Positions 17,414-21,067 of a stretch of DNA of 44,437 nt are shown piece by piece. Below the pieces are notes generated by a model. It was not told where the DNA came from. It ran no database searches and saw nothing but the letters and a program-made list of their open reading frames with translations. Source of the stretch: Chloroflexota bacterium. GTDB lineage: Bacteria; Chloroflexota; Dehalococcoidia; Bin125. Both the position numbers and the translations under genes were made by a program. Position 1 is the stretch's first letter. Each line of letters begins with the position of its first letter. Location of the stretch: NCBI GenBank assembly GCA_028874365.1, contig JAPPJZ010000033.1:158657-203093 (forward strand), written 5' to 3'.

Positions 17414-17665
17414 ATGTCCGACAAGCAGATCGCCATTGAAGTCGTCTACTGCGCCGATTGTGGCTACTGGCCTCGCACTTCGTGGATGCTCGGCGAGCTG
17501 ATGACCGACATCCAGCACCTCGTCTCCGACGTCAAACTCATCCCCGACACCAAAGGCCTCTTCGAGTGGTCCGTCAACGGAGACCTCGTCTTCAGCAAAG
17601 CCGCCATGGGCCGCTTCCCCGACATGGATGAACTGCGAGAACTCGTTTACGCCCACCTCGAATAG
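17414..17665 (+). CDS. SelW/Rdx-type thioredoxin-like protein (Cys form)
   Basis: An 83-aa protein with the Rdx (SelT/SelW/SelH) fold: EVVYCADCGYWPRTSWMLGELMTDI, a strand VKLIPDTKGLFEWSVNGDLVFSK, and the C-terminal helix PDMDELRELVYAHL. The redox motif CADC (residues 13-16) corresponds to CxxU in selenoprotein W; here it is the cysteine version. It is probably a cytoplasmic thiol-redox protein. GAGG lies 8 nt before the ATG. It is close to a true selenoprotein gene (19467). Confidence 0.85.
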   Translation: MSDKQIAIEVVYCADCGYWPRTSWMLGELMTDIQHLVSDVKLIPDTKGLFEWSVNGDLVFSKAAMGRFPDMDELRELVYAHLE

Positions 17666-19398: not shown

Positions 19399-19466
19399 GT
19401 CGCGGACGGGTAGACTCGCTACGCCGATGTCGATCTGATGCTTGTCCTCACCCTTGGAGCCGACTG

Positions 19467-20012
19467 ATGTCCGAAACCATTGAAGTCCTCAGCCCCCTCG
19501 CGCACGTCGCCGTCCACGAGGCGACCGCAGCCCCCCGTCCCCTGTCCCTTGACGGCCTCCGACCCGGCATCCTCGAGAACCGCAAGGCCAACGCCCGACT
19601 CCTGATGGAAACCATGGTCGAGCGGCTCGGCGAACGCCACCAACTCGGCGACCTCGTCGTCGGCAGCAAGCCGGTCGGCGGCCCACCCTCCGACTCAACC
19701 ATCGACGCCCTGCGCAACGGCGCCGACTTCCTCCTCATCGGCAGCTGCGATTGAGGCAGCTGCACGACGTGGAGTGTCCACGCCTCGGTCCTCTTCGAAG
19801 ACATGGGAATCCCGACCGTGACGGTCGGTACCTCCGCCTTCACCGACCTCCTCCAGCTCGAAGCCGAGCAGCGCGGCCTGCCCGAACTCGATCGCCTGAT
19901 CGTCCCACACCCGCTCGGCGGCCTGCGGCCTGACCGCGTCCGCGCACGTGTCGACGAGGGCGTCCTCGACCGCCTCGAAGCCGCCCTGCTCGGTCAGGCG
20001 GCAAGCTCGTGA
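19467..20012 (+). CDS. UGSC-family selenoprotein (in-frame UGA at 19752-19754)
   Basis: Two abutting open frames are one gene read through a TGA. Before it lies ADFLLIGSCD, after it GSCTTWSVHASVLFEDMGIPTV, which reconstitutes the D-Sec-GSC-T signature of the UGSC-containing family, known as a selenoprotein family in marine metagenomes. Product: 181 aa, Sec at residue 96. N-terminal half: IEVLSPLAHVAVHEATAAPRPL and LDGLRPGILENRKANARLLMETMVERLG. C-terminal half: VTVGTSAFTDLLQLEA and LIVPHPLGGLRPDRVRARVDEGV. A SECIS-like hairpin follows the UGA. GGAG is 8 nt before the ATG. The final TGA overlaps the GTG of the next gene. The redox role is inferred; the biochemical function is unknown. Expression needs SelA/B/C/D elsewhere in the genome. 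Confidence 0.88.
19768..19782 (+). promoter_or_regulatory. Putative bacterial SECIS hairpin
   Basis: CGTGGA-GTG-TCCACG forms a perfect 6-bp stem with a three-base loop that begins with G. The loop starts 19 nt after the UGA. This agrees with the bacterial SECIS consensus (G in the first loop positions, about 16-37 nt from the codon). It lies within the coding sequence, as bacterial SECIS elements do. Confidence 0.7.
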
Positions 20013-21067
20013 CCGCAGCTCGCGGCCGAGTAGCCGACCGATTCAGCCTGCCCTCCGACCCCTTCGACTTCTCCCAGGAATGCCAGCGTCGCGGTTGGTC
20101 CGACGGCCTGCCCCTGATCCCGCCAACGCCGGACCGCGTCGACGCAATGATCGAGTCATCCGGCCGAGATCCGCTCGAGCTGCTCGGCGTCCTCGCCCCG
20201 CGGCAGGGCGAGGCGACCGTCCAGGCGATTGCGATCAACGCCGTCATGGCCGGCTGTCGTCCCCCGCAGTTTCCGATTGTCCTCGCCGCCGTAGAGGCCA
20301 TCGCCCAGCCGCCGTTCAACCTGGACGGCATCAACGCCACCACGCACCCATGCGCCGTCTTCATCCTCGCCTCCGGTCCCGCCGCACGCTCGGCCGGCAT
20401 CCACGGAGGATCAGGTTGTTTCGGACCCACCTTCCCCTCCAACGCGACGATCGGTCGCGCCGTCCGGTTGGTCCAGCTCAATGTCGCCGGCGCAACACCC
20501 GGCCGCGGAGATCGCGCCACCCAGGGCACCCCGGCCAAGTTCGCCTTCTGCGCCACCGAGCGCGAGGACGCCTCGCCCTGGCCACCCTTCCAAACCACCC
20601 GCGGACTCAACGCCGAGGACAGTTGCGTCACGACCTGGGCCTGCGAGGGTCCGCACAACATCCAGGATCACGGCAGTAACACTGCCGCCGGTATCCTCCA
20701 GACCGTCGCCGGAGCCATGGGCCAGGCCGGCTCGAACAACATCCTCGGCAAGGGCGAGCCCGTCCTCGCCTTCGGTCCCGAGCACGCCGAGACCGTCGCC
20801 TCTGAGGGCTGGACCCGCGAAACCGTCCAGGAATATCTCTGGGAGAACGCCCGCTACCCCGCCAGCAAACTTAGCGACGAGTTCCTCGAGTCGGTCAACA
20901 TCCGCATGGCCGGCGGCGTCCTGGCCGAACACGACTCCGACGAATTGCTGCCCATCTCCGACAAGCCCGACGAAATCCACATCATCGTCGCCGGAGGCCC
21001 CGGCAAACACTCCTGCTGGATGCCCACCTTCGGCGGCATGACCCGCCCCGTCACTGTGCCGCTCTGA
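20009..21067 (+). CDS. Unrecognised partner protein of the UGSC selenoprotein
   Basis: A 352-aa protein I cannot assign. It is cytoplasmic in appearance and starts with GTG overlapping the selenoprotein stop (GTGA), so the two are translationally coupled. It contains conserved-looking turns and cysteines: WSDGLPLIPPTPDRVDAM, VMAGCRPPQFPIVLAAVEAI, ATTHPCAVFILASGP, GSGCFGPTFPSNATIGRAVRL, DSCVTTWACEGPHNIQDHGS and IIVAGGPGKHSCWMPTFGG near the C-terminus. The eight or so Cys and the coupling suggest that it works with the selenoprotein, possibly as a redox partner or a second subunit (inference). The WSDGLPLIPPT opening is shared with proteins in environmental bacteria that I can only call conserved hypothetical. 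Confidence 0.72.
   Translation: MTAARGRVADRFSLPSDPFDFSQECQRRGWSDGLPLIPPTPDRVDAMIESSGRDPLELLGVLAPRQGEATVQAIAINAVMAGCRPPQFPIVLAAVEAIAQPPFNLDGINATTHPCAVFILASGPAARSAGIHGGSGCFGPTFPSNATIGRAVRLVQLNVAGATPGRGDRATQGTPAKFAFCATEREDASPWPPFQTTRGLNAEDSCVTTWACEGPHNIQDHGSNTAAGILQTVAGAMGQAGSNNILGKGEPVLAFGPEHAETVASEGWTRETVQEYLWENARYPASKLSDEFLESVNIRMAGGVLAEHDSDELLPISDKPDEIHIIVAGGPGKHSCWMPTFGGMTRPVTVPL

Follow-up and report, generated by a model that had tools for sequence, protein, structure and literature searches.

A UGSC-family selenoprotein gene of a Chloroflexota genome, its companion gene and its probable kinship with selenoprotein B

Among the closest described systems, glycine reductase is reduced by thioredoxin and makes and breaks a selenium-carbon bond, D-proline reductase works with a dithiol (PMC10298544), and for a GrdB-like pair of proteins, cleavage of the fluoroacetate C-F bond has been proposed (PMC10838667). 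The UGSC family was reported in 2008 with 255 Sec genes in the GOS set, including a UGSC-containing protein fused with a conserved domain termed 'Unknown_1', and a thioredoxin fold was guessed for it at the time (PMC2398784); in a 2026 review its function was still not assigned (PMC13188914). The gene described here joins this known, uncharacterised selenoprotein family, and what is added is a testable proposal for the nature of the family. The partner gene, the linkage to thioredoxin reductase and the kinship with GrdB and PrdB all go beyond an earlier note, which was made from the DNA letters alone.

The window is a stretch of 44,437 nucleotides from contig JAPPJZ010000033.1 of a Chloroflexota bacterium (GCA_028874365.1), and the features relevant to the locus, in window coordinates, are as follows.

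19454..19459, + strand: possible ribosome-binding site TTGGAG, 7 nt 5' of the ATG (judged by inspection of the sequence)
19467..20012, + strand: gene of the UGSC-family selenoprotein, 181 codons including the UGA, plus stop (translation with TGA as Sec, PF24696, dN/dS)
19752..19754, + strand: in-frame UGA, the Sec96 codon (translation; TGA at the same place in 86 of 96 homologous domains)
19761..19763, + strand: Cys99 codon, second UxxC residue (invariant in alignments A1 and A10)
19768..19782, + strand: SECIS hairpin within the coding frame, 6-bp stem and GUG loop (folding and covariation in 24 sequences)
20009..21067, + strand: partner gene, 352 aa, putative substrate-binding subunit (family linkage to UGSC, fusions, model)

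Under translation table 11 the two halves of the UGSC gene fall into separate open reading frames. With TGA read as Sec, they form a single 181-aa chain that starts at the ATG at 19467, ends at the true stop TGA at 20010-20012 and reads ...GADFLLIGSCD-U-GSCTTWSVHASVLFEDMGIPTVTVG..., with the motif Asp-Sec-Gly-Ser-Cys-Thr (context ...GSCD-U-GSCTTWSVH...) and with Cys99 as the probable resolving thiol. In a comparison with a same-genus copy (L162), whose TGA aligns to that of the window gene, dN/dS was 0.05 on the 5' side of the TGA and 0.12 on the 3' side, and the reading frame beyond the TGA is, to judge from these sequences, under purifying selection. The in-frame TGA recurs across the 96 distinct UGSC domains gathered from public genomes of Chloroflexota, Proteobacteria, Actinomycetota and haloarchaea; where the TGA is absent and a motif can still be recognised, Cys stands at the Sec position, natural Cys homologues being found in Natrinema and Arthrobacter. 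That the TGA is an ordinary stop, followed by a remnant or a separate gene, would fit the splitting of UGSC genes by standard gene callers, but this is extremely improbable given the low dN/dS past the TGA, the TGA shared by 86 of the 96 homologous domains (most others having Cys), a covarying SECIS and a complete Sec machinery (see below); on the first three of these lines a plain stop codon or pseudogene was ruled out. Selenium is presumably incorporated at residue 96. The earlier note had joined two frames across the TGA into one D-Sec-GSC-T protein and had predicted that automatic annotation would cut the gene in two, and both statements hold, the split being seen as well in a homologue from Paracoccus ferrooxidans; homologues, which the note thought might all end at the TGA were its reading wrong, continue past it. 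The P. ferrooxidans gene is of the Sec type, with two hypothetical proteins annotated in its place; on plasmid pFER4 (L107) it sits beside its partner, with selA on one side of the pair and selB on the other, an arrangement which suggests that the Sec machinery travels together with the UGSC gene.

The SECIS element has the sequence CGUGGA-GUG-UCCACG, with six Watson-Crick pairs, and is present in the predicted folding. The stem begins 13 nt past the UGA (its first base being the 14th), and the loop G at 19774 follows a spacer of 19 nt; of the hairpin as described in the earlier note, the 6-bp stem and the G-first GUG loop stand, whereas the distance of 19 nt applies to the loop G and not to the start of the stem. 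When the peptide was recoded synonymously 20,000 times, a comparable 6-bp hairpin arose in 3.1% of cases over the range tested, and in the single sequence the hairpin is modestly unusual and suggestive only. Across 24 homologues aligned without indels, 85% of the stem cells are paired and the covariation is 0.324, compared with 0.117 +/- 0.023 for shuffled alignments (0 of 500 as high) and at most 0.122 for slid controls, with compensatory changes from C-G to G-C, U-A to G-C and G-C to C-G. Because the stem is coding, the residues at Sec+6 and Sec+9 covary (C..H, W..H, A..A, G..L). Just 5' of the SECIS stem, the repeated GSC-D-U-GSC codons (19741-19763) form a further hairpin of 7-8 bp with the UGA in its loop, which may have a regulatory role; the GSCDUGSC peptide was seen in the genus of the window only.

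The genome encodes the means to read the codon, with a tRNA-Sec (70.2 bits, above the cut-off, anticodon UCA), selA (529.9 bits), selB (342.5 bits) and selD (352.1 bits), so that the search for these four genes proposed in the earlier note recovered all of them. The SelD of the genome (L019, G000:C18:83058-83999) has one in-frame TGA and is probably itself a selenoprotein. Four UGSC genes are present in the genome, every one with a TGA, and the copies share 21-31% mutual identity. Elsewhere in the genome, four sites match PF07355 as short PrdB-like proteins, including L130 (G000:C78:47442-47834) and sites on G000:C59 and C9, and the site on C78 runs through an in-frame TGA with the motif PVUPFC. 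In the window itself, an Rdx (SelW-like) protein with CxxC and not Sec is encoded at 17414-17665, some 2 kb 5' of the UGSC gene.

Membership of the UGSC family, as named in the earlier note, is borne out by a PF24696 match over residues 6-165 (140 bits against a cut-off of 25, E 1.1e-40) with the U/C-G-S-C motif in register with the family in alignments A1 and A10. The NCBIfam equivalog NF041046 scores 105.6 bits, under its cut-off of 125, and the window protein is therefore a divergent member. With the family as defined by Zhang and Gladyshev (PF24696 / NF041046) it shares the sequence family, the UGSC motif, the SECIS and an occurrence in uncultivated aquatic bacteria, but it lacks the third Cys, having UGSCTTW rather than UGSCTSC. 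The statement that the family is known from marine metagenomes and lacks a function agrees with the literature (PMC2398784, PMC13188914). No relatives of the protein were found among viral contigs, and a sequence search of solved structures returned nothing credible.

The gene that follows begins within the end of the UGSC gene, with an overlap of 4 nt (GTGA, 20009-20012) at the stop, and its product matched no family in Pfam and NCBIfam searches. A homologue of this partner lies within 1 kb of 94 of the 96 UGSC domains, upstream or downstream and nearly always on the same strand, and in 26 of the 96 the two are fused as a single chain (some 530-600 aa), most of these chains having the variant motif GHUSTC or being UGSC-type fusions. 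The distance matrices of UGSC and partner correlate with r = 0.91 (82 pairs; 0 of 2000 permutations as high), a correlation to which shared genome descent contributes, although the set includes multi-copy genomes. The partner is thus a near-obligate companion of UGSC, and the family is probably the 'Unknown_1' of PMC2398784. Since the genes overlap, translation of the partner would depend on read-through of the UGA, which implies that both subunits would be tied to the selenium supply. Each of the four highly diverged UGSC copies in the genome has a partner of its own, and together the copies suggest one module per substrate. Around three further UGSC genes (L056, L104, L111), two or three partner-family genes stand in tandem about the single UGSC gene and may form a mixed complex.

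Partner residues conserved at ~93-100% are D32, P35, N77, M80-A81-G82, T112, G123, N145, G149-R150, E184, P190-W191, G199 and G329, and C83 and C181 are conserved at 82% and 74%, with the remainder mostly A and T, respectively. The structural model of the partner is confident (pLDDT 91.7). No credible match was obtained when solved structures were searched by sequence; the best fold match, to the two-subunit fumarate hydratase 7xky, was weak (Foldseek E 7.5e-4, probability 0.66, Z 5.5), matches to cyclic amide hydrolases were weak and unconvincing, and no fold is claimed for the partner. As a candidate homologue of GrdE/PrdA it was rejected (hhalign 0.1%), as it was for GrdB, to which it has no similarity.

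Several lines of sequence comparison place the UGSC domain near selenoprotein B. Aligned by hhalign with GrdB-family proteins of the same phylum, whose C-terminal region reads TATUGTCTRCGAT...AGIP...HPVGDPS..., the UGSC profile gave 95.8% (E 6.8e-9, 91 columns) with Sec on Sec, and 95.6% (E 1.2e-8) with a smaller sequence set, and G-IP, HP-G and the C-terminal helix are common to both. The score of 64.7 compares with maxima of 21.5 for 100 column-shuffled profiles, 18.8 for reversed and 15.3 for the partner profile, and it was 43.1 with the six motif columns masked in both. Short PrdB-like proteins aligned at 88% (E 2.8e-6). Conversely, PF24696 matches six of seven GrdB proteins exactly at UGTC, the best at 7e-5 and 23.4 bits, just under the 25-bit cut-off, and the NCBIfam models gly_red_sel_B, GrdF and PrdB match 28, 22 and 9 of 54 UGSC proteins, with best E values from 1.7e-4 to 2e-3 and far more UGSC members matched than by any unrelated family. 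The similarity is distant and local, spanning ~90 residues; from these profiles we conclude that UGSC belongs to the selenoprotein B superfamily, as a divergent branch cut down to the Sec domain. This kinship was not found stated in openly searchable papers, and priority is not claimed.

The window protein is not GrdB proper: it has no match up to E 10 to PF07355, the GRDB N-terminal domain of 347 positions, and its partner is not GrdE/PrdA, nor was a GrdE/PrdA-type gene (PF09338) found in the genome. GrdB, GrdF and GrdH, of glycine, sarcosine and betaine reductase, share with UGSC the UGxC motif, homologous flanks and the C-terminal region, and they can be likened to it in a two-subunit organisation and in the thioredoxin system as reductant, both of which are presumed on the UGSC side. 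They differ in length (~440 aa including the PF07355 part, against ~180 aa without it) and in having a GrdE-like second subunit, which the UGSC partner is not. PrdB and the short PrdB-like proteins are also small Sec subunits with UxxC and have a weaker but significant profile similarity, but they carry a UPxC motif and a longer conserved region, and GrdE/PrdA is unrelated to the UGSC partner. FarB/FarE offers a precedent within the superfamily for the proposed cleavage of a bond other than C-N by a Sec subunit and a second subunit (PMC10838667), but these are GrdB/GrdE homologues of anaerobes, and the partners show no homology. Full-length GrdB-like selenoproteins with the motifs UGSC, UGTC or UGTG were observed in several Chloroflexota genomes (L113-L119), those of the UGTG type having no second Cys, comparable to the description of FarB. 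No solved GrdB structure was found for comparison.

The AlphaFold2 model of UGSC (pLDDT 95.2) predicts a five-stranded alpha/beta sandwich with alternating strand-helix order, in which Sec96 would immediately precede the helix after strand 3. Structural matches listed for the model were receiver domains, flavodoxin-like reductases, small GTPases and similar proteins at Z 10.5 and below, and as common arrangements these would by themselves say little about function. The order of elements is Rossmann/flavodoxin-like, and the thioredoxin fold was absent from the listed matches, an absence that is no proof. These features bear on whether UGSC is an antioxidant thiol/selenol peroxidase or a thioredoxin-like disulfide reductase, with the partner as an accessory or substrate protein. 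A UxxC motif and thioredoxin-reductase neighbours would suit a peroxiredoxin-like cycle, and a Trx-like fold was assumed in 2008 (PMC2398784), but the confident model has Sec at a helix start after strand 3 in what is predicted not to be a thioredoxin fold, the best solved matches are of the Rossmann/flavodoxin-like kind, sequence similarity leads to GrdB/PrdB, the partner is nearly obligatory and antioxidant genes are not recurrent near UGSC; an antioxidant role is thus quite unlikely.

Same-strand thioredoxin-reductase-like genes adjoin the UGSC-partner pair in eight loci, three from Chloroflexota (L059, L150, L154) and the others from Roseovarius, Arthrobacter, two Variovorax and Haloterrigena, with a thioredoxin gene (trxA) beside it in Arthrobacter. 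Given that a genome carries one or two of these genes, the linkage is estimated to be far above chance; no thioredoxin reductase was seen beside the UGSC copy of the window. Clustering of the neighbourhoods returned, besides the partner, recurrent CoA transferases, SDR proteins, acyl-CoA dehydrogenases and thiolases, with several other clusters being shadow frames, and carboxylate-binding transport proteins and lyases are also found among the neighbours. The neighbourhoods point to the catabolism of small carboxylates and are too generic to fix a substrate. A link to hydroxyproline metabolism is a lead only, drawn from aconitase X or ornithine-cyclodeaminase neighbours at three loci (Sporomusa, Vibrio and V. 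boronicumulans), two of them without Sec/Cys.

On balance, we favour the reading that UGSC and its partner make up a thioredoxin-linked, two-component (elsewhere single-chain) C-X-cleaving reductase, UGSC as its Sec subunit and the partner as the subunit that binds the substrate, a reading which is probable rather than firm and for which we infer the physical complex, the reductive chemistry, the electron flow, the subunit roles and the substrate class. The UxxC would serve as the active site, set in a Rossmann-like domain that is homologous with the Sec domain at the C-terminus of GrdB/PrdB. The substrate, a small organic compound and probably a carboxylate, would be bound and polarised by the partner, the Sec selenolate would attack the carbon of the C-X bond (where X may be N, S, O or halogen) with release of the leaving group, and Cys99 would resolve the Se-carbon adduct, releasing the product and leaving a selenenylsulfide that thioredoxin and thioredoxin reductase would reduce to close the cycle. 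The Schiff-base/pyruvoyl chemistry would not be transferable to the UGSC pair because the partner is unlike GrdE/PrdA. Counting against a reductase are the missing GrdB N-terminal domain and the distant similarity of ~90 residues.

It may instead be that there is no net reduction, with Sec serving as nucleophile in an isomerase, lyase or transferase and with the role of thioredoxin reductase limited to keeping the selenol reduced. A Rossmann-like domain with Sec where a helix begins, as modelled, would also suit covalent non-redox catalysis, and CoA-transferase and lyase neighbours are common. In Sporomusa termitida (L110 7299-9023) and Vibrio europaeus (L183 5368-7053), a fused UGSC-partner protein carries DMGT where the Sec/Cys motif would be, and it adjoins genes for aconitase X, of a dehydratase family, and DUF126. 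Because these fusions have lost Sec/Cys and kept the partner, at least one branch would act without the redox residue, and this branch is the strongest reason for keeping a non-reductive mechanism in play. Its application to the Sec-containing proteins is nevertheless unlikely, as selenenylsulfide turnover is suggested both by the second UxxC Cys, which is invariant, and by the recurrent trxB/trxA linkage.

Beyond the reductase reading for UGSC itself, it is possible, if distinctly more tentative, that UGSC and its partner form a distinct class of Se-dependent, thioredoxin-driven C-X reductases, combining a Sec domain of GrdB type with a partner whose fold is not recognised, occurring in bacteria outside the Stickland fermenters and, in a Cys form, in halophilic archaea, and expanded by duplication to several substrate-specific modules per genome. 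UGSC is among the most abundant selenoprotein families of aquatic metagenomes and has stood for ~18 years without a function. For annotation, a split gene preceded or followed by the partner family can be read as one selenoprotein operon. Taken together, the placement with selenoprotein B, the partner and the likely electron donor turn an 'unknown redox protein' into an assayable enzyme hypothesis, which, if true, would extend Sec-driven reductive C-X cleavage beyond the amino-acid-fermenting anaerobes.
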